NCBI GenBank assembly: GCA_030448265.1
Contig: JAUJNG010000004.1
Coordinates: 145,061-209,060, forward strand
DNA length: 64,000 nucleotides
Source: Abditibacterium sp.
GTDB lineage: Bacteria; Armatimonadota; Abditibacteriia; Abditibacteriales; Abditibacteriaceae
Direction of reading: 5' to 3'
The translations under genes were made by a program, and so were the position numbers. The notes beneath the pieces are model-generated. The model was given only the letters and a program-made list of their open reading frames with translations. It was not told the origin of the DNA and ran no database searches. Each line of letters begins with the position of its first letter. The stretch's first letter is position 1. Positions 2,341-63,320 of the stretch are shown piece after piece.

Positions 2341-2443
2341 CATTCCGAGGAGGCCCGACGAGGAATCGGTGATAGTTTTCACCAATTTTCGGCCAAAAGA
2401 ACTCCAAACTATCACCGATTCCTCGTCGGGCCTCCTCGGAATG
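2341..2443. repeat. Perfect 35-bp inverted repeat, 33-nt loop
   Basis: Arms 2341-2375 and 2409-2443 are exact reverse complements. Each contains CATTCCGAGGAGGCCCGACG at its outer end. It fills the gap downstream of the reductase gene. There is no U-tract, so it is not a canonical intrinsic terminator. The spacer before the next gene also holds a small GACGCC/GCGTC stem near 2524-2540. Confidence 0.95.
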
Positions 2444-2568
2444 ACAACGCCCTATTGAGTCGTAACTTGGGTTTCTCTTCGGGTGATTGCAGCGCCCATC
2501 CGCTTGATTTATGATTCCATTGAAGACGCCATTTTGCGTCTCCACACTCAGGTTGAGAAGGAGTTTCA

Positions 2569-4290
2569 ATGGACACACCGCGTGAGAAATCGGGGCACTG
2601 GCTGGAATCGCTCGCCGTTCGCTCCGCCATCGTGATGGCGCTTTTGTTCGGCCTCATGTTCGCCGTTGGCATCGGGCTTTTGTGGTATTTAAACCAGCCG
2701 ATGTGGATAGCGCTGCTCTTCGGCTTCGTCGTGGTTTTCGGGCAATATCTGGTTTCGCCCTGGATCCTCGACCGCCTTTTCCAGATCAACTGGGCGCGCG
2801 GCGCGCAAATGGGCGCGGAATTCGACCTCTGGCTGACCAACGCCTGCATTGGGTTGAAAATCGAAAAGCCGCGTCTGGGCATCATCGAAGACGGCAATCC
2901 CAACGCGTTCACCTACGGTCGCACGCGCCGCGATGCGCGCGTCGTGGTGACATCGGGCCTGCTCGAAATGCTCTCGCCCGCCGAAGTGCGCGCGGTTGTG
3001 GCTCACGAACTGGAACACGTCGCGCATCGCGATTTCATCGTGATGACCGTCGCGCAGTCGATCCCCCTCGTGCTTTACATCTTCTACGTTTGGACGCGCG
3101 AACGCGCCCGCGACGGCCTGGGCGCCCTCGCGGTTTCTCTGGGCGCTTACGCGGTTTATATCGCCTCGCAGTTCATCGTGCTGTCACTGTCGCGCGTGCG
3201 CGAATTTTTCGCCGACGAAGGCGCCGGCGACCTCACGCGCGATCCCAATTCCCTGGCTACGGCGTTGGTGAAAATTTCCTACGGCCTCGCGCCGCGAAGC
3301 GAACAAGTCGCCTACGAAGCCGCTCTCGCCGAGCAAAAAGACAAAAAATCCAAAACGCAAGTCGCCAAACCGCGCGATCTGGGCGCGGCGCGCGCTCTGG
3401 GCATCTGCAATCTCGACAACGCGGGCACTTTCGCCATGAGCGCCGCCGACGCGAGCGGCGCGTTCAGCCCCGCTTTGATGCAACGCGCGGTGCAGTGGGA
3501 TTTGAAAAATCCCTGGGCCAAATGGTATGAACTCAACTCGACGCATCCTCTCACCGCGCGGCGTCTGGGTGCTCTGAGCGCGCAGGCGCTGCGTCTGGGC
3601 CAGACGCCCGCCGCCGCCGTGCGGGAAGACGCGCGCGTTTATCGCGGCCATTTCTGGGGCGAGTTTTTGCTGTCCGCGCTGCCGTTTCTGCTGGCGCTCG
3701 CGGGATATTTCGGCGGTTTCGTGTTGCTCGATCAGGGCGGCGCGGCGAGTTGGAGTCCGGCTCTGGCGGGCTACGGCATCGGGCTTTTGCTCAAGACCAT
3801 GCTGGTTTATCCGCCGTTGCAAGGCCGTCAGCGTAGCGTGGCGGATCTGGTCGGCGAGGAACTCGAAGCGTCGGGCGTGCATGGCGTGCCCTGCGAAATC
3901 GAGGGTGAAATCGTGGGTCGCGGCGTGCCAGGCTTGTTCTGGTCGAAAGATCTGGTGCTGCGCGACGCGAGCGGCTTTTTGACGCTGCAATATCGCCAGC
4001 CGTTTTTGGTTTTGGAACTGCTGTTCGGCGTTTTGCGCGCGCAGCGCTTCGTCGGACAAAACGTGCGCGTCAAAGGCTGGTATCGCCGAGCGCCGGTGCC
4101 TTACATCGAAGTCGAACGCCTCGCAAGCCAAAACGGAAGCGACGGTTTGCGCTGCTATTTCCGCCAGGGCACGCTGTTCTGGGGCGTGTTTCTCCTCGCG
4201 CTGGGCGGCTGGGCGACGGCGACGCAAACCGATATCATGTCCGCGCTGTGGAACGCATTTCTCTTCATCGCGGAGTTGTTCGGGCGTTGA
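2569..4290 (+). CDS. M48-family membrane zinc metalloprotease
   Basis: A 573-residue integral-membrane peptidase related to HtpX/Ste24. Two hydrophobic segments occupy about residues 20-65. The zinc motif VVAHELEHVAHRD has H146, E147 and H150 of HExxH. The preceding GNPNAFTYGR pattern and a downstream REFFADEGA supply the third ligand region typical of M48 enzymes. The C-terminal 220 residues carry further membrane spans and a soluble segment not needed for catalysis, making the protein longer than HtpX (about 290). HtpX-type enzymes degrade damaged membrane proteins; that role is inferred here. The start is supported by AAGGAG seven bases upstream of the ATG. Confidence 0.9.
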   Translation: MDTPREKSGHWLESLAVRSAIVMALLFGLMFAVGIGLLWYLNQPMWIALLFGFVVVFGQYLVSPWILDRLFQINWARGAQMGAEFDLWLTNACIGLKIEKPRLGIIEDGNPNAFTYGRTRRDARVVVTSGLLEMLSPAEVRAVVAHELEHVAHRDFIVMTVAQSIPLVLYIFYVWTRERARDGLGALAVSLGAYAVYIASQFIVLSLSRVREFFADEGAGDLTRDPNSLATALVKISYGLAPRSEQVAYEAALAEQKDKKSKTQVAKPRDLGAARALGICNLDNAGTFAMSAADASGAFSPALMQRAVQWDLKNPWAKWYELNSTHPLTARRLGALSAQALRLGQTPAAAVREDARVYRGHFWGEFLLSALPFLLALAGYFGGFVLLDQGGAASWSPALAGYGIGLLLKTMLVYPPLQGRQRSVADLVGEELEASGVHGVPCEIEGEIVGRGVPGLFWSKDLVLRDASGFLTLQYRQPFLVLELLFGVLRAQRFVGQNVRVKGWYRRAPVPYIEVERLASQNGSDGLRCYFRQGTLFWGVFLLALGGWATATQTDIMSALWNAFLFIAELFGR

Positions 4291-4332
4291 GGAAGCAAAA
4301 GGGGAAAGGCGAGGCTCAGTCGAGAAGCATAT

Positions 4333-4515
4333 ATGTTTGTTTTTAAGATTCCTGCGGTGGGTGTTAGCACGGTGCTTGGTGTATTGGTCTACATCATAGC
4401 TGTCAAATACTTACTTTTGCCCAACATCTGGCTATTGGCTGTCTTTCCGGTTGCCTTTATAACGGGTATACTTGCGCTTCTCATTTATAATTGGTGGGTT
4501 TTTCGTGAACTTTAG
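4333..4515 (+). CDS. Small two-span membrane protein
   Basis: A 60-residue ORF that is almost entirely hydrophobic, with two likely membrane helices (about residues 8-29 and 32-53) and a short charged tail. No family is recognised. It lies 42 bases after the protease gene in the same direction. Base composition is more AT-rich than the flanking genes, as is the following membrane gene, which suggests both came in together. There is no strong ribosome-binding site. It could be a real small membrane protein or a chance hydrophobic frame. Confidence 0.45.
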   Translation: MFVFKIPAVGVSTVLGVLVYIIAVKYLLLPNIWLLAVFPVAFITGILALLIYNWWVFREL

Positions 4516-4614
4516 AGGGAGGACACCAAGGGCAGGGTGACGCTATGGCTACGACAGTAACGACAACCTGCTGTTCTTGCCTTTTTGCCATTTTAGAAAA
4601 CACATCAGGCGATA

Positions 4615-5637
4615 ATGAGGAATATGCACAATATGATCGAGTGGCTTGATTCGCTGCCGGTCGCACTCTATCTGCTCATCGTCGTTCCGAGTGTCATCTT
4701 CGTTTTTGGCGTTTACCTGTTCCTCTTCATTCTTCTTTGGAAAGGTGAAACAATTGGCATGACTTTAAGTGCCGATAGGCCAACAGCAACAGATTATGTG
4801 CGCGCCTTCCTCGGCCTAATGATATGGCTAATGTCTATTCCATTGATGTTCGGTGCGATGATGCTCATTCTTTTGGCACCTGCGCTATTCTACGAAAAAG
4901 TTTTAGGATGGCCTCGTGATATTTCCTCTGTTGTCGGCATCTTGACGCCTTTCATCCTGATAAGCCCGTTCTGGATTCGGTCGTGTAGAAAAAATAAAGA
5001 ATCCCCGCCGCGAGCAGCGGGGTATTTCAAGGAGAGTGTAACTTTGGCTGTCAAGGCACAGCGTAGTGGTAGCTGCCAGTCAAAAGAGGGCCAACTGGTC
5101 AGAGGAGGTGAGCGCGGGGGAGTGAGCGGCATAGAGTTGTTGGTAGGTCAAATCTTGACCTTTTTCCTGGCCTTGGTCGCGCACATAATCCGCGATGGTG
5201 TGTTCGTTGCCCTGGGGCCCCACCGTCGAGACAAAGTAGCCATCCGACCAGAACTCGCCGCCCCACAACTGCTTCTTGACCTGAGGACACCGCTTGAACA
5301 CTTCGCGCGCCGTGAGGCTCTTGAGAATGGTGATGATTTTGGTGGGGCTGTAGGTGGGCACCGACTGCACCAGAAAATGCACATGGTCGCCATCGGTGCC
5401 AATTTCCAAAAATTCGATCTCGTAGCGCCGCGCGATGTCCAGACACACCTCGCGCACTGCCTCGTCCACAGCATGGTCAATCACCACACGCCGATATTTG
5501 GCAGGAAACACCGCATGGTAAAGCAACACGCTCACATTGTGACTTTTATGGATGAGACGGCTCATGCCTCAAGTCAAACACAGCGCACTCGCCTCGCTGA
5601 CGCGAGGCTCCAATCGCCGCAAGCGGCGGGGTATTGA
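4615..5637 (+). CDS. Membrane protein with C-terminus overwritten by an IS200 insertion
   Basis: The first ~128 residues form a plausible membrane protein: a hydrophobic helix at about 15-42, two more at about 63-100 and 105-120, ending in a basic SCRKNK segment at 4999. From about 5000 onward the frame reads antisense through the transposase, so residues after ~128 are not native. If the inserted DNA is removed (about 5000-5636), the frame continues as KDPQKNK and stops at 5654-5656, a natural-looking end. The gene is AT-rich relative to its neighbours. No family is recognised. The reconstruction is inference that depends on the exact insertion boundary. Confidence 0.5.
   Translation: MRNMHNMIEWLDSLPVALYLLIVVPSVIFVFGVYLFLFILLWKGETIGMTLSADRPTATDYVRAFLGLMIWLMSIPLMFGAMMLILLAPALFYEKVLGWPRDISSVVGILTPFILISPFWIRSCRKNKESPPRAAGYFKESVTLAVKAQRSGSCQSKEGQLVRGGERGGVSGIELLVGQILTFFLALVAHIIRDGVFVALGPHRRDKVAIRPELAAPQLLLDLRTPLEHFARREALENGDDFGGAVGGHRLHQKMHMVAIGANFQKFDLVAPRDVQTHLAHCLVHSMVNHHTPIFGRKHRMVKQHAHIVTFMDETAHASSQTQRTRLADARLQSPQAAGY
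5000..5637 (-). mobile_element. IS200/IS605-family element (tnpA only)
   Basis: A single-gene element of about 640 bp. It carries a Y1 (HUH) transposase and a hairpin near each end: 5003-5022 (CCCCGCCG / CAGCGGGG, one mismatch) and 5615-5628 (CGCCGC / GCGGCG). Both are followed by GGGGTATT, as expected of the subterminal hairpins this family recognises as single strands. No tnpB is present and no target duplication is expected. The exact ends are uncertain by a few bases. It has inserted into the 3' end of a membrane-protein gene. Confidence 0.8.
5080..5565 (-). CDS. tnpA: IS200-type Y1 transposase TnpA
   Basis: A 161-residue HUH-superfamily transposase that cuts and rejoins single-stranded DNA through one tyrosine. 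The metal-binding pair is seen as DHVHF (H61, H63), and the catalytic tyrosine as Y110 in FWSDGYFVSTVG, the family signature. Length is close to the 140-155 residues usual for IS200; the extra C-terminal tail (about 15 residues) is variable. All key residues are intact, so the protein should be active. The recognised substrates are hairpins, so this enzyme is a candidate for moving the many palindromes in the window, although that is speculation. Confidence 0.92.
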   Translation of the reverse strand: MSRLIHKSHNVSVLLYHAVFPAKYRRVVIDHAVDEAVREVCLDIARRYEIEFLEIGTDGDHVHFLVQSVPTYSPTKIITILKSLTAREVFKRCPQVKKQLWGGEFWSDGYFVSTVGPQGNEHTIADYVRDQGQEKGQDLTYQQLYAAHSPALTSSDQLALF

Positions 5638-5789
5638 CCCACAGAAGAATAAATAGAAACGAACCAGAAGCGGTCAGAACGCAACGTTGGTGAAGAAAGG
5701 GCCGAATTCATGCCCTTTTGCATTTAAGGCGCGCGATTTGAACGTTCTCTCCCGCGACGGCAATTTTAGAAGGAAATCCCCACATTAAT

Positions 5790-9155: not shown

Positions 9156-9378
9156 CAAACGCATGAGTAGGCGGGGATATAAAATGGCGCTTGACGCGAT
9201 CCGCCGCCTCGCGCATTCCATCAAACGCATGAGTAGGCGGGGATATAAAATCCCCGCCTGGAGAGCCTGCGGCTGGTCGTGCTTCGCACGCATCGGGGCG
9301 CCTGCTCCGTGAATTGGATGCGCGCGAAGCACGTCCAGCCGCAGGCTCTCCAGGCGGGGATTTTATATCCCCGTCTAC
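9156..9378. repeat. Composite repeat: direct 30-mers plus 44-bp inverted repeat
   Basis: A 30-bp direct repeat containing GCATGAGTAGGCGGGGATAT lies at 9156-9185 and 9222-9251. The second copy opens an inverted repeat with arms 9233-9276 and 9335-9378 (43 of 44 match). A smaller self-complementary segment, GGCGGGGATATAAAATCCCCGCC, lies within each arm and its core can pair locally. The block fills the divergent gap between comEC and the next plus-strand gene, so any promoters must sit around it. The upstream stretch near 9133-9152 (AAACCACCCCCACCCCCAG) resembles the repeat at 34771. Confidence 0.9.
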
Positions 9379-9437
9379 TTGCCACGCGGCGAAGAAGCGG
9401 CTTATCCTCTTCATCGCTTTTCATTTCAAGGAATTTT

Positions 9438-12927: not shown

Positions 12928-14516
12928 ATTCAAGCAGAGGAGCAGAGGAGCAGAGGAGCGGAGGAGAAAGGGACATTGGAGCGAAAACAACGTCCTTTTC
13001 GCGCTCACGTCCCCCTCTCCTCCGCTCCTCTGCTCCTCTGCTCCTCTGCTTGTTCGCGCTCGCGCTCCTCGTGCGCTCCCTCGGCCTCACCTGGGGACTG
13101 CCCGACGCGGCGCGCTGGTATTCGTATCATCCCGATGAATCGACGCGGCAAGTGGTGGGCGGCGTCGTTTCGCTTTTGCAGGGCGATTGGAACCCGCATT
13201 TTTTCAATTATCCTTCGCTGTCGATTTACGCGACGTGGCTCGTTTATCAGTTTTTGCTGGTTCTGGGCCTCACCACCGACGCGGCTGCGCCGCAATATCC
13301 CTGGCCTGTCGTGCGCGACATTATTTTCGCGGGACGGCTTTTTTCCGCCTTGTGCGGCGCGTTGACGGCGCCGCTCGTTTGGGTCATCGCGCGGCGCTTG
13401 AAAGCGGGAAACTGGGCGATTTTGGCGGGAATTCTGGCGGCTCTGGCGCCAGGACACGTTCAGCATTCGCATTTTGCGACCGTCGATGTTCCTGCCACCT
13501 TTTTCGTGACGCTGTGCCTTTATCTCACGCTACGGGCCGAAAATAAGAAAGGTTTGCTGTGGGCGGCGCTGGTGGCGGGTCTGGCGGCGGGAACGAAATA
13601 TAACGTGGGACTGGTTTTGATTGCGCCGCTTGTGGCGCTGTGGTTGTTGCCGAATGGAAATCTCAGGAGCCGTATTTTGGGGAGTTTCGCGTTCATTTTG
13701 GCGGCTTTCCTGGCGTTTCTGGTTTCGACGCCTTATGCCCTGCTCGCCCCAGGCGAGTTTTGGGGCGAGCCTTCCACACAATCCGGCTTCGCTTACGAAT
13801 TACTGGTGCATCCGCGCCAAGGCTCCGGCGAGATTTTTCAAAATACCGGCAACGGCTGGATTTATCACGCCACTTTCAATTTGCCTTTCGTTTTGACCTG
13901 GCCGCTCATTATCGCGGCTTGCATCGGGATTTATTTCGCGGCTAAGAAGCGCGAGTGGTGGCCGATGCTGGCGTTTTTGGGATTGTTCTTTTTCTCGCTC
14001 GGCTTTTCACAGGTGCGCTTTATGCGCTATTTGCTGCCGCTTGTGCCGATTCTGTGCTTATTAGCGGCTTATGGCGCGGCGCGGTTGCCGAAACCGCGAA
14101 TCTGGGGCGCAATTTTGGGCTTGTTCGCGTTGTGGGGCGCCAAAGATGTGCTGTGGCCGTTTCTCCAAACCGACCCGCGTGACCAGGCGGCGCCTTTTTT
14201 GAAGGGGCAACAAGTCGCCATGCTGGGCAATCCCTGGTTCTACACGCCGCCGTTTCAGCCTCAGGGTTTCAATTCGCCGGTTGCGGGCGTCGAAGTGACG
14301 GGCGGGAAAGTGGGAAAATCTCCGTTGGTGATTTCGGAATTTGAATGGCGCGAACCGCTGCGGCTGGGCAGAACCGACCTTGAGGCTGTGAATCTGGTTT
14401 CCAACCCCAGCATTACGGCGCGGCAGTTCAAAAATCGCGTGCCGTTGGCGCTTCCTGGGCGCCCGTTCGTGCCGCACGATTACCTTTACACCAATCCCGA
14501 AACGCGAATTTATTGA
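12924..14516 (+). CDS. GT39-type (ArnT/PMT-like) membrane glycosyltransferase
   Basis: A 530-residue polytopic protein of the ArnT/PMT group, which moves sugars from polyprenyl-phosphate donors onto envelope acceptors. The first luminal loop has the acidic YSYHPDES motif expected of these enzymes, followed by nine to eleven hydrophobic spans. The start overlaps the upstream stop as ATGA. Residues 3-43 are encoded by a perfect 37-bp inverted repeat (12931-12967 / 13016-13052) and the DNA between its arms, giving a Ser/Arg/Glu-rich N-terminus and part of the first helix. A TTG at 13048, at the end of the right arm, is the main alternative start. Acceptor unknown. Confidence 0.8.
   Translation: MNSSRGAEEQRSGGERDIGAKTTSFSRSRPPLLRSSAPLLLCLFALALLVRSLGLTWGLPDAARWYSYHPDESTRQVVGGVVSLLQGDWNPHFFNYPSLSIYATWLVYQFLLVLGLTTDAAAPQYPWPVVRDIIFAGRLFSALCGALTAPLVWVIARRLKAGNWAILAGILAALAPGHVQHSHFATVDVPATFFVTLCLYLTLRAENKKGLLWAALVAGLAAGTKYNVGLVLIAPLVALWLLPNGNLRSRILGSFAFILAAFLAFLVSTPYALLAPGEFWGEPSTQSGFAYELLVHPRQGSGEIFQNTGNGWIYHATFNLPFVLTWPLIIAACIGIYFAAKKREWWPMLAFLGLFFFSLGFSQVRFMRYLLPLVPILCLLAAYGAARLPKPRIWGAILGLFALWGAKDVLWPFLQTDPRDQAAPFLKGQQVAMLGNPWFYTPPFQPQGFNSPVAGVEVTGGKVGKSPLVISEFEWREPLRLGRTDLEAVNLVSNPSITARQFKNRVPLALPGRPFVPHDYLYTNPETRIY
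12931..13052. repeat. Perfect 37-bp inverted repeat inside a coding start
   Basis: Arms 12931-12967 and 13016-13052 are exact reverse complements and consist of the tandem unit GCAGAGGA repeated three times with one variant. The repeat begins 4 bases after the preceding gene's stop and lies in frame within the next gene. Confidence 0.95.
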
Positions 14517-16594: not shown

Positions 16595-17107
16595 ATGCTC
16601 GAACTCGAAATTTACCGCGCCCATGCGCGCTACAATCGCTGGATGAACGAAAAGCTGCTCGCCGCGTGCGCGCTGCTTTCCGACGAGGAGCGCCGCCGCG
16701 ATCTGGGCGCGCCATTTGGCTCGATTCACGGCCTGTGGAACCACATTTTGCTCGCCGACCGAGGCTGGCTCTCTCGTTTCGCGGGCGAGCCGTTTCCCTT
16801 CCAATCGCTGGACGAGGAAATTTGCGCCGACTTCGCACCCCTGCGCCAGGAACGCGCCCAGACCGACGATGCCATCGACCAATTCGTCGCGGGCCTCACG
16901 CCGGAGCGACTGGAAGCGCCCTTGACTTTCGTTTCACTGTCCATTCCCAGGCGACGCAGCCTTCCGCTTTACGTCGCGGTTTCGCACCTCTTCAATCACC
17001 AAACCCATCATCGCGGGCAAATCACGGCACTTCTGGAACAGCTCGGCGGCGACTGCGGCGTCACCGACCTCGCCGCCCTGCCGGAACTGGAGATTTTAAT
17101 TGATTAG
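16595..17107 (+). CDS. DinB family putative metalloenzyme
   Basis: A 170-residue four-helix-bundle protein of the DinB/YfiT superfamily. The expected metal-binding histidines appear as LWNHILLADR (about residue 48) and FNHQTHHRGQ (about residue 134). Members often act as thiol-dependent transferases or are damage-inducible proteins of unknown function. It starts with YRAHARYNRWMNEKLL, the typical first helix. The gene is 14 bases after the DnaJ-domain gene and likely co-transcribed. Its TAG stop (17105-17107) is the first codon of a long inverted repeat. Confidence 0.88.
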   Translation: MLELEIYRAHARYNRWMNEKLLAACALLSDEERRRDLGAPFGSIHGLWNHILLADRGWLSRFAGEPFPFQSLDEEICADFAPLRQERAQTDDAIDQFVAGLTPERLEAPLTFVSLSIPRRRSLPLYVAVSHLFNHQTHHRGQITALLEQLGGDCGVTDLAALPELEILID

Positions 17108-17212
17108 AGAACGCGAAGCGTGAGCGAGTGAGGCCTGACTGCTTCTTTCGATTTAACAGCAGTGACGGAAAGAAGCAGTTAGGCCTCACTCGCTGACGCT
17201 TCGCGTTCTCTA
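17105..17212. repeat. 44-bp inverted repeat between convergent genes
   Basis: Arms 17105-17148 and 17169-17212 match at 42 of 44 positions, 20-nt loop. The left arm begins on the DinB stop codon and the right arm ends 4 bases from the stop of the minus-strand epimerase gene. It may act as a bidirectional terminator, though there is no T-run. Confidence 0.95.
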
Positions 17213-18141: not shown

Positions 18142-18316
18142 GGCTGATTCAGTCGCAGGGCAATCGCAGGAGGAAATTTTTACCACAGAGACACAGAGAC
18201 GCAGAGGAAAGAGGGAGAAACGAAGTTTTGAAGACCTTTTCAATAGCTTCTCTTTTCTTTTTTCTCTGCGTCTCTGTGGTAAAAATTTCCTCCTGTGATT
18301 GCTCTGCGATTCAGCC
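18142..18316. repeat. Long imperfect inverted repeat with tandem CACAGAGA units
   Basis: Left arm 18142-18207 and right arm 18262-18316 pair over most of their length. The left arm holds one extra ACACAG unit. The shared core is GGAGGAAATTTTTACCACAG followed by repeated AGACAC/GCAGAG units. The right arm ends over the stop codon of the receiver-zinc ribbon gene (18311-18313). The same CACAGAGACAC motif occurs at 44283. Confidence 0.9.
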
Positions 18317-20605: not shown

Positions 20606-20630
20606 AGGCTTTTTGCCGGAGAAAAGCAAA

Positions 20631-20692
20631 GCGGGGCTTGCGCCCTCTTCCATCTTGGATTTCTCCCGATTGGAGGAGGATGTGAGTCCCGC
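20631..20692. repeat. Palindromic element, family A, copy 1
   Basis: GCGGGGCTTGCGCCCTCTTC begins the left arm (20631-20654). The right arm (20668-20692) is its imperfect complement, containing GGAGGAGGATGTGAGTCCCG. It lies just after the kinase stop and provides a GTG and a strong Shine-Dalgarno-like GGAGGAGG for the next gene. Copies recur at 49846 and 59483. Confidence 0.85.
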
Positions 20693-21797
20693 CCCCTTGC
20701 CTTCTCGCAAGGAAAACGCGCCAATCGAAAAGAAGCCGCCTCAGCCTCTTGCGGCGCGCGCGGTGCGGGTGCAACCTCTACGAATGCCCGTTTTGCGCCG
20801 CCATTCTCGTCTCGCCCTGGCGACGATTGTATCACTGGCGCTTCTGGCGGGCGTGTGGATTTTGCAAAATTTCGTCGGCGAGCGCACCGGCCCGACAGCG
20901 CTTCTCACTTACTTTCCAACTCATGCCTGGGCGCTGTTTCCACTGGTTTTGGGCCTGATAGCGCTGCGTCGGCGCCGCGCCGCGCTGTTGTGCCTGAACC
21001 TGCTGGGACTGTTGTTCTGGGCCAAATGGATTTTCGGTTTCAACGTGCCGCTTCGCGTTTTCGCGCGCGAGAAAACGGCGCCAACAATTCGGATTCTCAC
21101 CTACAACGTCCAGCGCGCAGAGCGCGGAACGCAGGGTTTAATCCGCACCATCAAAAACCAGCGTCCCAACATCGTTTGTCTGCAGGAAAGTCAGCGCTCA
21201 AGTCCCAACGGCTCGCGTTCTCCTGGCGACGTGCTGCAAAGGGAGTTTCGCGGCTGGAAAAGCGCCCGCGCCGGCGATGTGATGACGCTTTCGCGTTTTC
21301 CGCTTGCGAGTTGGCGCTCCTACCCGCTTCGCGGCAGGCGGCGCATTCTCGAAACGACGTGGAGCACGCCGCACGGCCAAATTCGGGTCTTGAACGTCCA
21401 TGTGGCAACGTCTTACCCCAGACAACGCCGAGCCAGACGCGGATTGTGGCGGCGCCTGAGCCAAGTCGCGCGCGACTCCCAACCCTCAGCGCAGGCGCGC
21501 CTCGATCAAATCGCGCCCCTTTTTCGCGCCGTCGCAGCCGGAAATCCGCAAATTCCGCTCGTGGTCGCGGGCGACTTCAACACCCCGCCGCGCGGCCTGT
21601 TTTATCGCGCCCTCACCTCGAAACTGGAAGATTCGTGGGCGCGAAACGGCTGCGGAACCGGCCACACCTTTCCCTCGCGCCTGCCCATGCTGCGAATCGA
21701 CTACATTTTTGAGCGCGGCGCGAAATCGAAGCGCGCGTTCGTGCCCGATTCACACGCCTCCGATCATCTACCGTTAGTCGCCGATGTGATTTTTTAG
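20682..21797 (+). CDS. Membrane-anchored endonuclease/exonuclease/phosphatase (EEP) family protein
   Basis: An EEP-superfamily hydrolase with two to three N-terminal hydrophobic segments and a catalytic domain in the C-terminal two thirds. Motifs: ILTYNVQ (Asn), IVCLQES (Glu ligand), VAGDFNTPP (catalytic Asp and Asn) and the terminal SDHLPLVADV (Asp-His). Relatives cleave nucleic acids, phospholipids or inositol phosphates; the substrate is unknown. The start is uncertain. The longest frame begins at 20508 inside the kinase gene; GTG 20682 has GGAGGAGG from the inserted palindrome just upstream; ATG 20784 begins right before the first helix. The stop TAG (21795-21797) opens a perfect inverted repeat. 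Confidence 0.82.
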   Translation: MSPAPLPSRKENAPIEKKPPQPLAARAVRVQPLRMPVLRRHSRLALATIVSLALLAGVWILQNFVGERTGPTALLTYFPTHAWALFPLVLGLIALRRRRAALLCLNLLGLLFWAKWIFGFNVPLRVFAREKTAPTIRILTYNVQRAERGTQGLIRTIKNQRPNIVCLQESQRSSPNGSRSPGDVLQREFRGWKSARAGDVMTLSRFPLASWRSYPLRGRRRILETTWSTPHGQIRVLNVHVATSYPRQRRARRGLWRRLSQVARDSQPSAQARLDQIAPLFRAVAAGNPQIPLVVAGDFNTPPRGLFYRALTSKLEDSWARNGCGTGHTFPSRLPMLRIDYIFERGAKSKRAFVPDSHASDHLPLVADVIF

Positions 21798-21894
21798 CCA
21801 CAGATGACACAGATGGATTCACAGATGGGCACAGATGTTTTTTCTTAAATTCATCTGTGCCCATCTGTGAATCCATCTGTGTCATCTGTGGCTA
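21795..21894. repeat. Perfect 43-bp inverted repeat of ACAGATG units
   Basis: Arms 21795-21837 and 21852-21894 are exact reverse complements, 14-nt loop. Each arm is made of repeated CACAGATG units with variable spacers. The first three bases are the TAG stop of the EEP gene. Confidence 0.96.
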
Positions 21895-21994
21895 AACCAG
21901 CACTTTGAGCCGGAATTGGCCCCAGTGTGACACGACTCAAAAAAGATTTCAATGAGATGAGTGAAAATGGGTGGCTGGGTTGTTGGGTGGTTTT

Positions 21995-22188
21995 CCGTCG
22001 CTTCGCGTCGGCCCTCACCCGTCGCTTCGCGCCACCCTCTCCCGCAAGTGGGAGAAGGAGTAGCTGTCACGTCGTCCAACTTACTGCTTGGTTCAAGTTG
22101 CGCCGAAAACTCCTTCTCCCGCTTGCGCGGGTGCCCTCTGGGCGTGGGTGGCGCGAAGCGACGGGTGAGGGCCGACGCGAAGCGACGG
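21995..22188. repeat. Perfect 43-bp inverted repeat with nested hairpin
   Basis: Arms 21995-22037 and 22146-22188 are exact reverse complements and contain two GTCGCTTCGCG units each. Inside, CTCCCGCAAGTGGGAGAAGG and CCTTCTCCCGCTTGCGCGGG form further pairings. The block sits between convergent genes, ending 18 bases from the PhoB-like stop. Confidence 0.95.
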
Positions 22189-24395: not shown

Positions 24396-24483
24396 GAGAC
24401 GGAATACGGGATACAGAAGAGCTAAGCGCGACTCTCCAACTTCCGCATTCCGTCTCCCGCATTCCGTCTCCCGCATTCCGCCT
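24396..24483. repeat. Inverted/tandem repeat, family B, copy 1
   Basis: GAGACGGAATACGGGA (24396-24411) pairs with TCCCGCATTCCGTCTC (24455-24470, one mismatch). The right side is a tandem of the unit CGCATTCCGTCTCC repeated almost three times. It occupies the whole gap between sbp and cysT, up to two bases before the cysT ATG. Related copies at 37118 and 56325. Confidence 0.88.
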
Positions 24484-24484
24484 C

Positions 24485-25321
24485 ATGCCTCGTTTTCGCT
24501 TTAAAGAACGCAGTGTTTTGCCAGGGTTTGGCTTGTCGCTGGGTTACGCGCTGTTTTATCTGTCGATTCTGGTGCTGATTCCGCTTTCCACGCTGTTTTG
24601 GAAAGCGGGAAGTGAGGGCTGGCCCCATTTCGTGAACGCGGCGTTCTCCCCTTCGGCGCTGGCTTCCTACAAACTCACTTTCGGCGCGGCGCTTTTGGCG
24701 GCGACGGTCAATATGTTCGCCGGACTGCTGGTGGCGTGGGTTCTGGTGCGCTATTCGTTTTGGGGCAAGTCGCTCGTCGATGCGCTTGTCGATATGCCCT
24801 TCGCGCTTCCCACGGCGGTGGGCGGCATCGCGCTCGCGACGGTTTACGGGCCCAACGGCTGGATCGGCGCTCATCTGGCGAAATGGGGCGTGAATGTGAT
24901 TCAAACCCCGATTGGCATCGTCATCGCGCTGATTTTTATCTCGCTGCCGTTCGTGGTTCGCACCGTGCAGCCGGTGTTGCAGGAACTCGATGCCCAGCTC
25001 GAAGAAGCGGCCTCGTCGCTGGGCGCCTCGCGCTGGATGACGTTTCGCCGCGTGCTTTTTCCCTACATCTGGCCCGCGCTTCTCACCGGCACGACGCTGG
25101 CCTTCGCGCGCGCCATTGGCGAATACGGCTCGGTGATTTTCATCACTTCCAACATTCCGTTTCGCACCCAGATCACGCCGCAACTGATTTATACGCGCCT
25201 CGACGAATACGACACCGCCGGAGCGACCGCGATTGCGCTTGTGATGCTGGTGGTTTCGTTCGCGCTGTTGCTGTTCATCAACGCTTTGCAGGCGTGGAGC
25301 CGCAAACGTATGCGCGGCTGA
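24485..25321 (+). CDS. cysT: Sulfate ABC transporter permease CysT
   Basis: A 278-residue inner-membrane permease (also called CysU) with about six helices. It begins with LPGFGLSLGYALFYLSILV, a strong CysT signature. The EAA loop that contacts the ATPase is seen as EAASSLGASRWMTFRRVLFP (about 175-194), followed by FARAIGEYGSVIFI. Pairs with CysW to form the sulfate channel. The ATG is directly behind the family B repeat, which leaves no room for a clear Shine-Dalgarno sequence other than what the repeat supplies. Confidence 0.94.
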   Translation: MPRFRFKERSVLPGFGLSLGYALFYLSILVLIPLSTLFWKAGSEGWPHFVNAAFSPSALASYKLTFGAALLAATVNMFAGLLVAWVLVRYSFWGKSLVDALVDMPFALPTAVGGIALATVYGPNGWIGAHLAKWGVNVIQTPIGIVIALIFISLPFVVRTVQPVLQELDAQLEEAASSLGASRWMTFRRVLFPYIWPALLTGTTLAFARAIGEYGSVIFITSNIPFRTQITPQLIYTRLDEYDTAGATAIALVMLVVSFALLLFINALQAWSRKRMRG

Positions 25322-27450: not shown

Positions 27451-27616
27451 AGTTCGCTCGACTGAAGTCGGCGCTGACCCAGAGGGTGCCCCGCGCTGCG
27501 CGCTAACTTCCCGCCTTCGCGGGAAAACAACCCCTTGCTTTTTTCGGCGCAGGCCGAAAGTTAGCGCGCAGCGCGGGGCACCCTCTGGGTCAGCGCCGAC
27601 TTCAGTCGAGCGAACT
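27451..27616. repeat. Perfect 59-bp inverted repeat enclosing two hairpins
   Basis: Arms 27451-27509 and 27558-27616 are exact reverse complements. The 48-nt centre holds two further stems, CCCGC/GCGGG around 27510-27523 and TTTCGGC/GCCGAAA at 27542-27559, giving a four-way junction. It contains CCCAGAGGGTGCCCCGC, related to segments at 22129 and 34793. It follows the cysA stop by 34 bases. Confidence 0.97.
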
Positions 27617-34922: not shown

Positions 34923-34934
34923 CCTTGATTTCAC

Positions 34935-41940: not shown

Positions 41941-41984
41941 GAGAAATGGCTCTTTTTCACTTTAGAGGGACATGGACTGCCACA

Positions 41985-42152
41985 CAATGCGCGACTTGCA
42001 TGTTGGCCCCCTCCCTAACCCTCCCCCGCAAGCGGGAGAGGGAACCGGTCACACGGTTCTGGTCAAAGTTGCAGGAAACGCCGTATGAAGTGGTTCCCTC
42101 TCCCGCTTGCGGGGGAGGGTTAGGGAGGGGCCAACATGCAAGTCGCGCATTG
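41985..42152. repeat. 61-62-nt near-perfect inverted repeat
   Basis: Arms 41985-42046 and 42092-42152 pair over their full length with a single-base indel. The core TAACCCTCCCCCGCAAGCGG is itself partly self-complementary (CCCGCAAGCGGG). It occupies the gap between the GH5-like gene and the upstream glycosyltransferase. Confidence 0.95.
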
Positions 42153-42169
42153 CATAGCAAGCCATGTCC

Positions 42170-44282: not shown

Positions 44283-44359
44283 AACCACAGAGACACGGAG
44301 ACACAGAGATTTTTGAGGTTCAACCCTCTTTCTCTCTGTGTCTCCGTGTCTCTGTGGTT
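44283..44359. repeat. Perfect 27-bp inverted repeat of CACAGAGACAC units
   Basis: Arms 44283-44309 and 44333-44359 are exact reverse complements, 23-nt loop. Same family as 18142. The right arm covers two bases of the TAA stop (44358-44360) of the upstream glycosyltransferase. Confidence 0.95.
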
Positions 44360-49743: not shown

Positions 49744-49845
49744 GAGGAAGAAGCGTCGGCACGATTTTACCCGACCTAACAACTCGCTGCGACCCTCTTC
49801 ATTTTTGGATGTTCTTCGGATCAAAACCTGTGAGAATTGATTCCA

Positions 49846-49910
49846 GACGGGGCTTGCGCCCTCTTCCAATCTGTGGGTTCCGATGATTGGAAAAGGGCGC
49901 AAGCCCCGCC
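49846..49910. repeat. Palindromic element, family A, copy 2
   Basis: Arms 49846-49870 and 49886-49910 match at 23 of 25 positions; core GGGGCTTGCGCCCTCTTCCA. It lies in a divergent intergenic region between the epimerase gene and the next plus-strand gene. Confidence 0.93.
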
Positions 49911-49983
49911 TGTGGTTCCTGCGGCCCCAAGTCGACTTGGCACACGCGACACGAAAGCTTTATTCTTTTTGTTTGAGGAAAAA

Positions 49984-53895: not shown

Positions 53896-53967
53896 GGTAA
53901 CTCCTGAGAAATGATCGCTGCCGGTTTTGCAAAAATTGCACCTCGACGCAGATTTCGAGCCATTCAA

Positions 53968-54136
53968 TAGACCTCTTGCAAAAGTGCCTATTCGAAATTG
54001 GCAGCGACTGAAGTCACCGCAACAACGACGCGAAGTCCGCCAGCGCGGACTGGAGACTCCCCAACCTGCGAAGGCAGGTTTCGCGCCGTTGTTGCGGTGA
54101 CTTCAGTCGCTGCAAGCCACTTTTGCAAGAGGTCTA
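53968..54136. repeat. Long inverted repeat with unpaired arm insertions
   Basis: TAGACCTCTTGCAAAAGTG (53968-53986) pairs with CACTTTTGCAAGAGGTCTA near 54118-54136; further in, GCAGCGACTGAAGTCACCGC pairs with GCGGTGACTTCAGTCGCTGC. A 13-nt stretch is unpaired on the left side only. It sits at the 3' end of the AIM24 gene. Confidence 0.93.
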
Positions 54137-56324: not shown

Positions 56325-56390
56325 AGGAGACGGAATGCGGAAGACCGAATTTCGCGCTTAGCTCTCCCGTCTCCCGTATTCCGTCTCCCT
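56325..56390. repeat. Inverted/tandem repeat, family B, copy 3
   Basis: AGGAGACGGAATGCGG (56325-56340) pairs with CCGTATTCCGTCTCCCT (56374-56390, one mismatch). The right side carries tandem TCTCCCG units. The end coincides with the first base of the VWA gene's stop (56390-56392). Confidence 0.85.
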
Positions 56391-57694
56391 CATCCCAGTC
56401 GTTTAGTTTTCTTCGTTTCCGCCGACGACACCGCGAGATCGTCAGCCGTGATCTGGCCGCCGGTGTCGAGCGTATCTTCCATGTTTTCCAGAATTTTGGT
56501 GGCGTTGACCTTGCCCAAACGCTGCGTCATCTTCTTTTTGCGCTCCAAAACCTGGGTCATTTTGCGCTTGTCGCCGGAACGCACGGCGGCTTCGAGATCG
56601 ACCTGCAATTTGAAATCGTTGGCCTCTTCGATGAGCCTCATCACTTCGCCGTTGCGCTGCGACAGTTCGACATCGTTATCCGAAAAGCCGGTCAAAACGT
56701 GCGCTTCGACGTGAACACTGGGATTGGCGCTCGTCCAGGCCGCAATTTGACACAATAAATCACGGCTTTTCGGGCTTTCCGGTGCGCTCGTCACCACATC
56801 GAGCAAATACGCCTGCGGCTGGTCGTTTTGCAGCGAGCCGACGGCGATTTTAAAGGCGTTATTGATGACGCTGGGCGGGTCGAAAACCTTTTTATCGGGC
56901 ACCACGCGCCAGAAGCGGCGCGCTTTGCCGTTCAGCCGCGAAATTTCGAGGGTGACTTCGGAAATCACCGTCGAGGAAATGCGCTCGAACTCCTGCGCGA
57001 AGGTGGCGGCCAGTTCATCGGGCGTCGTCGCCATGAGGAAGGTGCCGCTTCCCTTGTCGGCCAGATCGCGCAAAAAGGCGGCGTCGTAATCTTCGGCGCT
57101 GCCCAGACCGATGGTGGAAACCGAAACGCCGTTTTTCTCGAATTCGTCGCGCGCGCGGTCGAGAAACTTGTCGAGGTTGCGGTCGATGAAGCCCTGCGAA
57201 TCGGTCGGCTGGCCATCGGAAAGCACGATCACAAACGTCGTCACGGCAGGCCCGCGATGCGGCGCGACTTCCGCGAAAACGGTGTTGAGGCCGGTGAGCA
57301 GTTCGGTCGCGCCTTCGACGCGCAAATCCGAGACGGCGCGAATCGCGCGTTCGCGCGCACCTTCCATGAACTGGGTCGAAGGCACAATCGCCCGCGCGCC
57401 GCTCGAAAACACGCACACCGTCGCGCGGTCGTCGGGCTTGAGGCGCTCCAGAATGAGGGCGCAGGCGCGCTTGGCGTTTTCGAGTTTGGCGCCGTCCATT
57501 GAGCCGGAATTATCCAGCAAAATGCCCAGATTGAGCGGCAGCGCGCGCAGCCCGCCGCCAAAAATCCCCGATGCGTTCGCGCCGCGCGCTCCGGCGCCGC
57601 CAGGCGAGAGTTCGATGAGAATGGTTTGCAAAAAATCGCCGCGCGTGGGGCGAAATTCTTTATCGATTGCGGTTCGCAGTGCTAAATCAGCCAT
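56390..57694 (-). CDS. VWA-domain protein
   Basis: A 434-residue protein. The von Willebrand A domain (about 50-215) has the MIDAS motif DNSGSMDG, Thr in ATELLTG and Asp in LSDGQPTD. A C-terminal region (about 230-430) contains mixed beta and helical elements. Cytosolic, no signal peptide. VWA, PP2C and Ser/Thr kinase genes occur together in the stress-type phosphorylation triads described for tellurite-resistance-associated systems. Here the same three are joined to FHA. ATG 57694 chosen. Confidence 0.88.
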   Translation of the reverse strand: MADLALRTAIDKEFRPTRGDFLQTILIELSPGGAGARGANASGIFGGGLRALPLNLGILLDNSGSMDGAKLENAKRACALILERLKPDDRATVCVFSSGARAIVPSTQFMEGARERAIRAVSDLRVEGATELLTGLNTVFAEVAPHRGPAVTTFVIVLSDGQPTDSQGFIDRNLDKFLDRARDEFEKNGVSVSTIGLGSAEDYDAAFLRDLADKGSGTFLMATTPDELAATFAQEFERISSTVISEVTLEISRLNGKARRFWRVVPDKKVFDPPSVINNAFKIAVGSLQNDQPQAYLLDVVTSAPESPKSRDLLCQIAAWTSANPSVHVEAHVLTGFSDNDVELSQRNGEVMRLIEEANDFKLQVDLEAAVRSGDKRKMTQVLERKKKMTQRLGKVNATKILENMEDTLDTGGQITADDLAVSSAETKKTKRLG

Positions 57695-58495: not shown

Positions 58496-60208
58496 TCACT
58501 CACAAAACAGCGCCGCGACGGTGATATTGTCAATGCCGCCCGCCTCGTTCGCGGCGTTCACCAAAGCCGCGCACAGACCTGAAACATCGTCGTGCGCCGC
58601 GATGATTTCCCCGATTTGTGCGTCGCGCAGCGTATCCACTACGCCGTCGCTCACCAAAATTAGTTTATCGCCGCGACTCAGCAGCCGAAGCAACACGTCT
58701 TTTTTCATGCCGCGCATCATGCCGATGTGCGAAGTAATCACCGAGCCGTCGGGATGGCCCCACGCCTGCTCTTCGGAGATCGAACCGGCATCGAGCAAAT
58801 CCTGAACGTAGGAATGGTCTCTGGTGAGCCGCTCCAGACCCGATTTCGCGTTCCAGCGATAAGCGCGGCTGTCGCCGACGTTGCCGATGAAGACCCGCGA
58901 ACCGGCGCGAAGCGCACACACGAGGGTCGAGCCTGGCTTGTTTCGCATCGAAGCGTAAGGCGGATTTTCCGTCAGGCGCACCACCGACTGGTTGACTTCG
59001 CCCAGAACCTCTTCGAGAGTCTTCAAAACGAGCGCATTGTCGTTCCAGTCGAGGTTTTGCCGACTCAAAATCAAGTTTTGCAGGCTTGAAAGCGTCAAAT
59101 CGGAGGCGACTTCGCCGCCTTCGTGCCCGCCCATGCCGTCGGCGACGGCCAACACTTCGACCGCGAAATTGCGCTCGTGTCCGGCGCGCATCATTTTCCA
59201 GACCAGGCCGCAATCTTCGTTGAGTTCGCGCTCCATGCCGACATCGCACAGCAAATCGCTCGCGGTTTTGGCGACCGGCGCGAAACCTTCCAGCGCCGCC
59301 ACGACTTCGCCCGCACTCCCAAATTCGCCTTCATTTAAGGAGCGGGCGAAAGTTTTGACTTCCTCGGAAAACGGCAGCGCGCCAAATTCGTCGTCGAGGC
59401 GCAGCGTCGCGCCCGCCGCGAGTTGGGTTTTGGCGAAGCGGCTCGACAGCGCCGAAAGCTGGTGGATGGCGGGGGTTGGCGAGGCGGGGCTTGCGCCCTC
59501 TTCCAATCCCGCAGATTCTGAGTCCGAGGGATTGGAAGAGGACGTAAGTCCCGCCTCCATCGCATCGAAAAACCCGAAGCATCGGAGTTGTCCCGCCGCG
59601 TCGAAAAACAGGGTTTCGCGCGCCAAATCGCTTCGCAGTCCGGCATTTTCGAGCGCCCACAGCCCTCGCGCGACTTCGCCGACCACGCCGAGATAAATTT
59701 CGTCGTTGGGATGGGCACTCCAATCATCAAGCGACTTCAAATTCCCCCAGTCCCAGACGGCGAATTCGTCCTTGTCCTGCACAAAGCGCGTCGCGGGCGG
59801 GAAAAACGGCGCGTCGGGGCCGTTCTCAATGAAAGTCGGCGGCGCGTGGCGCTGGGCGACGAGTTTGAAGTCGTGGGCGCCGTAATCTCCGGCGTCGGCC
59901 AGATAATGATTGATGAAACCGCGCGAAACGACTTCCTTTATCTCGTATTGACCGCCCAAAAACGAACCGGCGACGAGAGCGCGCGGCGGCTCGGCGAGCG
60001 CAGCATCAATGGGAGGAAGCGCAACGTCATTCTGCGACTCCACAACAGGATTCTGAGTGGCCACAGCGTCATTTTGAGGAGCCGTAATATCATTCTGAGG
60101 GGCCGCAACAGGAATCTGAGGAGCCGTAATATCAATCTGAGGGGCCGCAGCGTCTTCCGTTGGCGGCTCGTCGCCCACTTTGGCCGTGTTGAAGCCGAAA
60201 ATTTTCAT
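58496..60208 (-). CDS. PP2C phosphatase fused to a degenerate kinase domain
   Basis: A 570-residue protein. Residues ~15-60 are tandem six- to seven-residue repeats (TAPQND-type). Residues ~85-310 resemble a kinase fold (GGQYEIKEVVSRGFINHY start) without G loop glycines, HRD or DFG, that is, a pseudokinase. The PP2C domain (about 320-570) has RELNEDCG, VADGMGGHEGGEVAS, GNVGDSRAYR, VSDGVVD and GGIDNIT, all metal residues intact. It reverses the kinases' phosphorylation. A family A palindrome (59483-59555) is inserted in frame in the pseudokinase region. Overlaps the kinase gene by ATGA. Confidence 0.9.
   Translation of the reverse strand: MKIFGFNTAKVGDEPPTEDAAAPQIDITAPQIPVAAPQNDITAPQNDAVATQNPVVESQNDVALPPIDAALAEPPRALVAGSFLGGQYEIKEVVSRGFINHYLADAGDYGAHDFKLVAQRHAPPTFIENGPDAPFFPPATRFVQDKDEFAVWDWGNLKSLDDWSAHPNDEIYLGVVGEVARGLWALENAGLRSDLARETLFFDAAGQLRCFGFFDAMEAGLTSSSNPSDSESAGLEEGASPASPTPAIHQLSALSSRFAKTQLAAGATLRLDDEFGALPFSEEVKTFARSLNEGEFGSAGEVVAALEGFAPVAKTASDLLCDVGMERELNEDCGLVWKMMRAGHERNFAVEVLAVADGMGGHEGGEVASDLTLSSLQNLILSRQNLDWNDNALVLKTLEEVLGEVNQSVVRLTENPPYASMRNKPGSTLVCALRAGSRVFIGNVGDSRAYRWNAKSGLERLTRDHSYVQDLLDAGSISEEQAWGHPDGSVITSHIGMMRGMKKDVLLRLLSRGDKLILVSDGVVDTLRDAQIGEIIAAHDDVSGLCAALVNAANEAGGIDNITVAALFCE
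59483..59555. repeat. Palindromic element, family A, copy 3 (in-frame)
   Basis: Arms 59483-59510 and 59528-59555 match imperfectly (25 of 28) and begin with GGCGGGGCTTGCGCCCTCTT. Read on the minus strand inside the PP2C/pseudokinase gene, it encodes a Gly/Leu/Ser/Glu-rich insert ending LEEGASPAS. Confidence 0.93.
60025..60160 (-). repeat. Tandem repeats encoding TAPQND-type units
   Basis: Five to seven tandem copies of a ~21-bp unit with core AATCTGAGGGGCCGCAACAG-like sequence at the 5' end of the PP2C gene. Copy number may vary. Units differ at single positions. Confidence 0.8.
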
Positions 60209-61533: not shown

Positions 61534-61565
61534 TGGGGACGAAGTAAAGTATGGCGCATCAAAAG

Positions 61566-61672
61566 TTTTAAGCGACATGAAGTCGCAGCCAACGAAAGTG
61601 TCGGCCTTCGCCGACACACCCCGTCAACGAAGGTTGACGATTTCGTTGGCTGCGACTTCATGTCGCTTAAAA
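61566..61672. repeat. Perfect 32-bp inverted repeat enclosing two hairpins
   Basis: Arms 61566-61597 and 61641-61672 are exact reverse complements. Inside are GTGTCGG/CCGACAC and CGTCAAC/GTTGACG hairpins, giving a four-way junction like the repeat at 27451. The right arm covers the TAA stop (61667-61669) of the barrel-like gene, the left reaches into the 5' extension of the kinase frame. Confidence 0.96.
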
Positions 61673-62218
61673 CGAGCGGCCCACGAAAAGCTGCAAGCCG
61701 TTGGCGGAAAGTCCGGCGGCTTTTCCCGCCGTGAGCTGATATTTCGCTTCAACGAAAAACTTCGAGGGCAGTTGGTAGCCGGCCTGGGCGAAACCGCCGA
61801 CCGTCACTTTGTTGTCGGAGCCAAGGGCGGAGCGGCCATCAAGGAAGTAAGCGCCCGCGCCGACGCCGAAATAGGGCGTTCCGGTGATGCGCCCGACCGG
61901 ATTGGGCGGTTGAAAAGTGCGCGAAACAGTGATGGGAATGACGCGCAGTTTGCCCCCATCACCGGAACGGCTTTGGATGCCGATGGAGACGAAATCGGCG
62001 CCCAGAAGACGCGGAATGCGAATATCGACTTCGGCGGCGGGCACAACCGAGCCGGCGGCATCGCGCGCGGCGTTTTGCGTGGGCAAAAGCGCGCCGATTT
62101 TGGCGCGAAAAGGCACGAGGCCCGTGGTCTGGGCGGAGGCGGCGCGCGGCGCGAGCGTCGACAAAGCGAGCATCGCGGCGGCGAGGACGAATTTGCGAGG
62201 AAAATTGGTGAAAAACAT
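61667..62218 (-). CDS. Secreted outer-membrane-barrel-like protein
   Basis: A 183-residue exported protein: signal peptide with cleavage after AASA (about residue 29), then alternating beta-strand-type sequence (VTVGGFAQAGYQLPSKFFVEAKY) ending in the aromatic LQLFVGRSF, a C-terminal Phe typical of outer-membrane barrels. This supports a diderm cell. Family unknown, size suits an eight-strand barrel. Confidence 0.78.
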   Translation of the reverse strand: MFFTNFPRKFVLAAAMLALSTLAPRAASAQTTGLVPFRAKIGALLPTQNAARDAAGSVVPAAEVDIRIPRLLGADFVSIGIQSRSGDGGKLRVIPITVSRTFQPPNPVGRITGTPYFGVGAGAYFLDGRSALGSDNKVTVGGFAQAGYQLPSKFFVEAKYQLTAGKAAGLSANGLQLFVGRSF

Positions 62219-62271
62219 CGAGCCTTATTTTATCCCATGAGAAAGGGGTGTTGAGTGGTTGTGTTCGGCCC

Positions 62272-63111
62272 TCACCACAGCGCCCGCAACGCTTCTTCCC
62301 GCATTTCCTGCGCCGAAATCTCGACATTCGCGCACACCTGCGCGGCGTATACATTGGTGTAAAGCAGCATCCCCAGGCCATCGACCGTCTGGCAGCCGAC
62401 TTCGCGCGCTTCGCGCAACAAGCGCGTTTCGAGCGGGTTGTAAACGATGTCGTAAACCGCCGTCTCGCGCCTGAGAAGCGATTTTGGAACCGGCGTTTGC
62501 GCGGTTTCGGGCGTCATTCCCACGCTCGTCGCGTTGACCAGAACCGCGACGTTTTGAAGTAATTCTTCACTCAAAGTGCCCGCCATCGCGCGCACGCCCA
62601 GCTTTTCGACTTCCGCCGCGATGATTTGCGCCCGCGAAACCGTCCGATTCAGAATCCGAATTTCCGCCGCGTCTTTGAGCGCGAAAGTGAGCGCCAGGCT
62701 GCGCGCCGCGCCGCCGCCGCCTACAATCGCAATGCTTTGGTTTTGAACGCGCACGCCTGCTTCTTCGAGACTTTTGAGCGCCGCCCAGCCGTCGCTCGAA
62801 TGGCCCACGATGCGCCCGTCGCCGCGAAAATACAGCAGATTGGCGGCGCCCATCACATCGGCGCTGCGATGAAGTTCGTCGCACAGGGCTAAAACGGCTT
62901 CTTTGTGGGGAATGGTGACCATCAGGCCCAGAAATCCCAGGTTCTGAGCGCCCACAACGGCTTTTTGGAGGTTTTCGGGCGCGACGCGAAACGCGAGGTT
63001 CACGATATCCGCGCCGGTTTTTCGCAGCGCGTGGTTTTGAATGCGCGGCGTCAGAGAGTGTTCGATGGGGTCGCCGATGATGGCGAGAGTGCGCGTGTGG
63101 GCGGAAATCAC
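62272..63111 (-). CDS. aroE: Shikimate dehydrogenase
   Basis: A 279-residue enzyme reducing 3-dehydroshikimate to shikimate with NADPH, fourth step of the aromatic-amino-acid pathway. N-terminal GDPIEHSLTPRIQNHAL (shikimate-binding Ser/Thr); catalytic Lys in TIPHKEAV (about residue 70); Asp in VGHSSDGW (about 106); NADPH loop VGGGGAARSLALTF; ATSVGMTP. The usual NTDG around the catalytic Asp is here HSSDG, and the substrate strand reads GAANLL, small departures from model enzymes. Single gene; no other aro gene nearby. Confidence 0.93.
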   Translation of the reverse strand: MISAHTRTLAIIGDPIEHSLTPRIQNHALRKTGADIVNLAFRVAPENLQKAVVGAQNLGFLGLMVTIPHKEAVLALCDELHRSADVMGAANLLYFRGDGRIVGHSSDGWAALKSLEEAGVRVQNQSIAIVGGGGAARSLALTFALKDAAEIRILNRTVSRAQIIAAEVEKLGVRAMAGTLSEELLQNVAVLVNATSVGMTPETAQTPVPKSLLRRETAVYDIVYNPLETRLLREAREVGCQTVDGLGMLLYTNVYAAQVCANVEISAQEMREEALRALW

Positions 63112-63130
63112 GGCGGAAGTTTAGCGGTCA

Positions 63131-63320
63131 CCCGCCATTGTTGACCTTTGAGAATCTAATCCTCAAGTCCGTAGTAGCGCCGCGAGGCGCGTTTGGGCCA
63201 GAGTGACAACAAACGCGCCTCGCGGCGCTACTACGGACTTGAGGATTAGATTCTCAAAGGTCAACAGCCTCCGGCACGCCAACTTGCGGATCAGATTGTC
63301 AAACATCAACAATGGCGGGC
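63131..63320. repeat. Perfect 56-bp inverted repeat nested in a diverged outer copy
   Basis: Arms 63139-63194 and 63211-63266 are exact reverse complements. The outer segment CCCGCCATTGTTGA (63131-63144) recurs in inverted, diverged form near 63290-63320 (TCAACAATGGCGGG), so an earlier pair surrounds the present one. It lies between aroE and the next minus-strand gene. Confidence 0.97.

Follow-up and report, generated by a model that had tools for sequence, protein, structure and literature searches.

Long palindromes at gene ends of an Abditibacterium genome probably form a REP/REPIN-like, multi-family population with arms homogenized at the DNA level

Repetitive extragenic palindromes (REPs), bacterial interspersed mosaic elements (BIMEs), REP doublets (REPINs), and the REP-associated tyrosine transposases (RAYTs) of the GTAG superfamily are described (PMC3733652, PMC3116915, PMC2817692) as short palindromes set in inverted pairs 20 to 100 bp apart, with many families per genome, placed at the 3' ends of open reading frames (ORFs) in unidirectional and convergent gaps, and occasionally supplying a stop codon. 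REPs with a CGTC tag have no dedicated transposase (PMC3733652). Replication template switching is known to make the two arms of an inverted repeat alike and can produce a perfect hairpin in a single event (PMC8794818, PMC8604942). Long near-perfect hairpins at bacterial gene ends might be mobile, selected, or made by replication. Here, we analyzed the long palindromes of a 64-kb stretch of the Abditibacterium sp. genome (the window), which share the REP traits listed above and of which a subset carries the GTAG tag; one GTAG family of the genome lies on both sides of a RAYT-like gene. We consider it probable that they belong to a REP/REPIN-like population of dozens of families occupying hairpin sites at gene 3' ends, with arms homogenized at the DNA level, probably by template switching.

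Long inverted repeats were found by our search at all 20 places listed in the window by the initial annotation: 17 pass the strict score, with arms of 26 to 77 nt (five perfect over at least 39 nt), and three (20631, 24396, and 56325) are weaker, being real but imperfect palindromes. Five dinucleotide shuffles gave none. The own-genome sample of 1.47 Mb (30% of the genome, so that counts beyond it are extrapolated) contains 280 palindromes, and its shuffles again contain none, which rules out a chance origin. The density is uneven, from 0 to 4.7 palindromes per 10 kb by region, and the extrapolation gives roughly 1,000 per genome. The suggested genome-wide population of palindromic elements is thus borne out, with dozens of stop-biased families, and in the window it is densely represented. 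Among the relatives, whose identity to this genome is 58 to 60% for the one protein compared, the same search found 22 palindromes in 0.49 Mb of a member of the genus (G001) and 66 in 0.42 Mb of a member of the family (G002), with none in shuffles.

The view that these sequences are mostly unrelated has to be abandoned, since 264 of the 280 palindromes share 12-mer cores with two or more further loci, and each of the 20 window palindromes has between 2 and 28 relatives among those sampled. The arm clusters are almost fixed in polarity (1,368 forward versus 61 reverse matches). Two styles of construction recur: a small hairpin within the arm (the GTAG types, GCGAATAAATTCGC, GGGGCTTGCGCCC, and AAGCGACATGAAGTCGC), and arms made of tandem words of 7 to 14 bp (CACAGAGA, AGCAGAGG, GGGAGACGGAATAC, AAGGCTAA, and GGCAACA). 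G002 has private word families plus some in common with this genome. Family cores have thus been copied to many gene ends, and some bring a stop codon with them: in 7 of the 10 genes that end at GCAGCGA[A/C]TAA elements, the stop codon is part of the element, and the encoded proteins end in -SE, -GE, or -SD. A miniature inverted-repeat transposable element with target-site duplication was considered and rejected, as flanking direct repeats of fixed length showed no substantial excess at any length from 2 to 9.

For part of these families, the agent of copying can be proposed. Roughly a tenth of the palindromes are of the GTAG type (GTAG[G/T] occurs in 29 of 280 left arms), in which families GTAGGGGCGTAGC, GTAGGGACATGGC, and GTAGTAGCGCCGCGAGGCGC (the last including 63131-63320) carry a GTAG tag beside a short stem-loop and form inverted pairs. 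They are REPs by tag and pairing, and one of their families also flanks a RAYT-like gene. That gene (C38:279681) encodes the YIxNNPxxW motif and scores 58.8 bits with NF047646, below the curated cut-off of 80 bits; in locus L278 the RAYT-like ORF (1459-1974) has perfect GTAGGGGCGTAGC palindromes on both sides (1344-1414 and 1969-2044), and such palindromes recur 8 times in the sample. This is the architecture of a REPtron (PMC3733652). The RAYT of G001 has a GTAG palindrome on its upstream side only, and the flanked gene of this genome was seen for GTAGGGGCGTAGC and not for GTAGTAGCGCCGCGAGGCGC, the family of 63131-63320. With such a family on either side of a RAYT-like gene, mobilization in trans is plausible for the GTAG subset, with a RAYT-like Y1 transposase as the likely agent. 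The tag is absent from the other ~90% (CACAGAG, AGCAGAGG, GGGAGACGGAATACGG, GCGAATAAATTCGC, GGGGCTTGCGCCC, and others), for which no agent was found; these families behave like REPs and are candidate members of the class. A third Y1 gene (C7:135.4k, L006/L279) is adjoined by a 57/57 palindrome of the family found at 9232 in the window.

A Y1 transposase such as the one encoded at 5080, which is present in several near-identical copies, had been suggested as a possible mobilizer of the palindromes in trans. For the gene at 5080, this finds no support: it belongs to a common IS200 (NF033573, E 1.9e-38), scores far under the NF047646 cut-off, and is not a RAYT, and the ends of the element have nothing in common with the palindrome arms (best match a 15-mer, E 0.45). 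Of the seven IS200 copies, three (L002, G000:C24:416747; L005; and L001) are associated with palindromes, one occupying the spacer of a palindrome of the CACAGAG family and two directly adjoining one, which exceeds what genome coverage predicts (p = 0.0004) and is marginal relative to intergenic space (p = 0.05), so that IS200 appears to be a user of palindrome sites. We therefore set aside this source as very improbable. Part of the IS200 family is decaying, several copies (L007, L008, and L009/L010) having frameshifts or breaks.

The word families, such as CACAGAG, have no associated gene or transposase that we could find. On its two strands, the CACAGAG word occurs 54 + 56 times in this genome and 38 + 38 times in G002; it is patchy in the phylum (16 of 251 genomes sampled), and the copies read in G001 are single and non-palindromic. 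These single words of G001 are joined to a repeated, terminator-like GATTGATTAATCAATC hairpin, for example at C93:12391 and C202:178332 (L156 and L245). Two CACAGAG palindromes of the same polarity (L276 and L277), which abut or overlap gene stops, were found in 1 of 145 genomes sampled from the phylum of L054 (Verrucomicrobia); one of them finishes at the stop codon of a gene for porphobilinogen deaminase, and its companion lies between convergent reading frames. A rather speculative alternative, which we rate as unlikely, is that the tandem-word palindromes (CACAGAG and its kin) are dispersed hairpins without any transposase, spreading within and between genomes and growing by template switching of DNA at 3'-end hairpins, their positions being inherited and their sequences replaced. 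A literature search for CACAGAG as a printed sequence found no paper, which does not show the word to be undescribed, and a search on palindromic elements of Armatimonadetes found nothing relevant.

Placement was assessed with genes called by a home-made codon-model caller. Convergent gaps contain 0.36 palindromes each, tandem gaps 0.22, and divergent gaps 0.18. Stop-facing sides lie within 15 nt of the stop in 57% of cases, where positions drawn at random within the gap would give 46%, and for start-facing sides the observed and expected figures are 24% and 39%; in tandem gaps, 128 palindromes are closer to the stop and 37 closer to the start. The enrichment at stops announced by the initial annotation is therefore real, as are the six arms that touch or cover a stop codon (17105, 18311, 21795, 44358, 56390, and 61667, all within 2 nt by our gene calls). 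Placement at gene 3' ends holds as a moderate bias and not as a rule, about a tenth of the palindromes lying in divergent gaps and the one at 59481 within an ORF. The lack of a T-run after the arms, also noted initially, stands: the T fraction is 0.257 versus 0.235 in intergenic sequence, and only 5.9% of arm ends have a TTTT at a distance of 12 nt or less, which rules out U-tract intrinsic terminators as a general account. Rfam gave no gathering-score match anywhere in the window.

Comparison of 27 orthologous gaps, each of at least 40 bp, separated position from sequence. The relative has a hairpin in 11 of the 14 gaps in which this genome has a palindrome and in 2 of the 13 in which it has none (one-sided Fisher p = 0.0015), and none of the hairpin-bearing gap pairs compared could be aligned. 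The G002 gap equivalent to 12931-13052 contains a palindrome of unrelated sequence, and several G001 counterparts are plain U-tract terminators. In convergent gaps, classic terminators are found in 29 of 36 cases (81%) in the palindrome-poor G001, 31 of 100 in this genome, and 12 of 40 in G002. That the same gene ends bear hairpins of unrelated sequence in relatives suggests sequence turnover with position kept, a result from three genomes and, as such, suggestive only. The elements, associated with gene ends, would be retained wherever a hairpin is tolerated or required at the end of a transcript, the position staying while the sequence is replaced, and would probably take over part of the role of intrinsic terminators or mRNA 3'-end hairpins.

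These observations bear on another explanation, in which the palindromes are ordinary, immobile transcription terminators with arms kept perfect by selection on RNA pairing. The stop-side bias, the hairpins in orthologous gaps, and the extreme RNA folding energies of the palindromes speak for it. It is nevertheless disfavored, and we find it improbable, given family cores common to many loci, stop codons supplied by the elements, the missing U-tract, the palindromes of divergent gaps, and the mismatches within the arms. Under upkeep by RNA pairing, G.U should greatly outnumber A.C once mismatches are oriented by transcription; so oriented, G.T mismatches of this genome number 230 and A.C 206 (p = 0.27), a comparison made with no positive control. 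This small wobble bias makes arm upkeep look like a DNA-level process.

The arms themselves point in the same direction. Within an element, the two arms are more alike than the left arm is to the right arms of other copies, with identities of 0.90 versus 0.60 for the TCATTCCGAGG family, 0.92 versus 0.71 for CACAGAG in G002, and 0.85 versus 0.74 for CACAGAG in this genome, where 0.85 is an underestimate because the loose pattern also caught poor pairs. For outward contiguous extension of the arms, the paired values are 3.26 versus 0.67 nt, 5.88 versus 0.95, and 4.42 versus 1.20, and in several families complementarity carries on beyond the shared sequence into flank unique to each locus. At 63131-63320, a third copy of the arm (63282-63320) lies outside the perfect 57/57 pair and has diverged from it (87%). 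Together with the little wobble bias, these features lend indirect support to the active correction of arms suggested initially. Arms would thus be homogenized, and often lengthened into the flank, at the level of DNA; replication template switching across the hairpin is the likeliest mechanism and fits the pattern seen at many sites. Loss of SbcCD as the basis of palindrome tolerance found no support: a divergent SbcC/SbcD pair is encoded on C42, and exonuclease VII is present as well, although no SbcC match was found in G002.

Nested insertion alone could do without template switching, if elements entered the apex of older 3'-end hairpins (terminators), the outer arms being the old stem and the core the newcomer. 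The nested palindromes at 41968, 18153, and 53967 have this appearance, one IS200 copy sits within the spacer of a palindrome, and at C40:125016 the outer stem AGCCACC...GGTGGCT occupies the site of the G001 terminator stem AGCCGCC...GGCGGCT. However, outer arm and core adjoin directly, no loop bases being left over between them, and flanks such as GAGGAAATGAA/TTCATTTCCTC would need prior perfect palindromes without a loop; moreover, extension lengths decay from 0 upward, as expected of copying, and the excess of within-element over between-copy arm identity is left unexplained. As the sole process, nested insertion is thus doubtful. Insertion into pre-existing hairpins does fit some cases (C40:125016), and both processes may have operated.

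Several observations weigh against a REP/REPIN-like population homogenized by template switching. Neither insertion nor template switching was directly seen at any site, and the GCGAATAAATTCGC, AAGCGACATG, and GGGGCTTGCGCCC families show little or no extension into the flank. The third-copy signature of template switching is rare, limited to a few loci, and as a general feature it is ruled out. Pooled over the three genomes, mismatches show a weak wobble excess (347 versus 294, p = 0.04), so that some RNA-level selection is possible. The p value of the orthologous-gap comparison spans 0.0015 to 0.38 by threshold and genome subset (n = 27 gaps), palindromes and classic terminators are not mutually exclusive in this genome (odds ratio about 1), and divergent gaps, in which transcripts do not end, hold 27 palindromes (~10%).

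The window features are collected in Table 1. A direct repeat, CAAACGCATGAGTAGGCGGGGATATAAAAT, at 9156-9185 and 9222-9251 precedes and runs into the palindrome at 9232. The palindrome at 59481-59557 keeps the frame of its ORF and sits ahead of a PP2C-type phosphatase domain, reminiscent of intragenic REP/RPE insertions.

Table 1. Palindromes and insertion sequence of the 64-kb window
Feature	Position	Strand	Remarks
Palindrome, TCATTCCGAGG (T/CGTC-like) family	2340..2444		Arms 39/39; 27 nt past stop; 8 relatives in sample
IS200-type insertion sequence, tnpA 5080-5565	4993..5657	-	Not the source of the palindromes
Palindrome 60/63	9232..9379		Divergent gap; core family also adjoins another Y1 gene (C7:135.4k)
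Tandem-word palindrome (AGCAGAGG)n	12931..13052		Occupies whole stop-to-start spacer
AGAACGCGAAGCG family palindrome	17105..17212		Convergent gap; gives DinB-like gene 16595-17107 its TAG stop
Composite palindrome	18153..18309		CACAGAG word core within ~29-bp outer arms, mostly locus-specific
GGGGCTTGCGCCC family palindrome, degenerate	20625..20700		8 relatives in sample
CACAGATG word palindrome 45/45	21793..21896		Overlaps stop of 20784-21797
CGTCGCTTCGCG / TCTCCCGC family palindrome 43/43	21995..22188		
GGGAGACGGAATACGG word palindrome, imperfect	24396..24490		Occupies whole stop-to-start spacer
CTCGACTGAAGTCGGCGC family palindrome 72/77	27451..27616		
CCTTCGTAAGGAGG hairpin-in-arm palindrome	34781..34926		Convergent gap
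GGGAGACGGAATACGG word palindrome	37118..37204		3 nt past a stop
Nested palindrome	41968..42169		CCCTCTCCCGCAAGCGGG core (39/39) within 80% outer arms
CACAGAG word palindrome 27/27	44283..44359		Overlaps stop of 44358-45491
GGGGCTTGCGCCC family palindrome	49844..49912		Divergent gap
GCAGCGACTGAAGTC family core, outer AGACCTCTTGCAAAAGTG arms	53967..54136		
GGGAGACGGAATACGG word palindrome	56325..56391		G002 orthologous gap: CACAGAG palindrome instead
GGGGCTTGCGCCC family palindrome	59481..59557		Within ORF 58496-60208
AAGCGACATGAAGTCGC family palindrome, two apical mini-hairpins	61565..61673		Overlaps stop of 61667-62218
GTAG-type core (GTAGTAGCGCCGCGAGGCGC) in 57/57 palindrome	63131..63320		~30-bp outer arm, mostly locus-specific

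Our study brings together, in one family-level lineage, repeated cores, positions kept with unrelated sequences, and arms homogenized with no clear wobble signal of RNA pairing. Should closely related strains confirm the pattern, these palindromes could offer a natural system to measure homogenization by template switching and to ask whether REP-like elements replace intrinsic terminators. They also carry a warning, as covariation that looks compensatory in such hairpins need not mean selection on RNA.

Compared with the REP/REPIN systems, only ~10% of the palindromes are GTAG-tagged here, most families having no tag or transposase that we found, and the arms are perfect or near-perfect up to 57 to 97 bp; tandem-word families and extension of the arms into unique flank do not appear in the sections of PMC3733652 consulted. 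The TCATTCCGAGG family resembles the CGTC-tagged REPs of PMC3733652: judged by eye only, it has a T/CGTCATTC start, with T/CGTC followed by AT, it forms an inverted pair, and no transposase was found for it, although its stem looks longer and bulged. Intrinsic terminators and the map of 3'-end inverted repeats in E. coli (PMC6060812) show the same enrichment just past stop codons, whereas the palindromes described here have no U-tract, far longer stems, and repeated family cores. REPs are known targets of insertion sequences (PMC1525189), and the IS200 copies in or abutting palindromes are alike in this respect, for 3 of 7 copies only. Finally, template-switch (quasipalindrome) mutation (PMC8794818, PMC8604942) homogenizes arms in the same manner; here, it would be read from the pattern of present-day arms at many sites.

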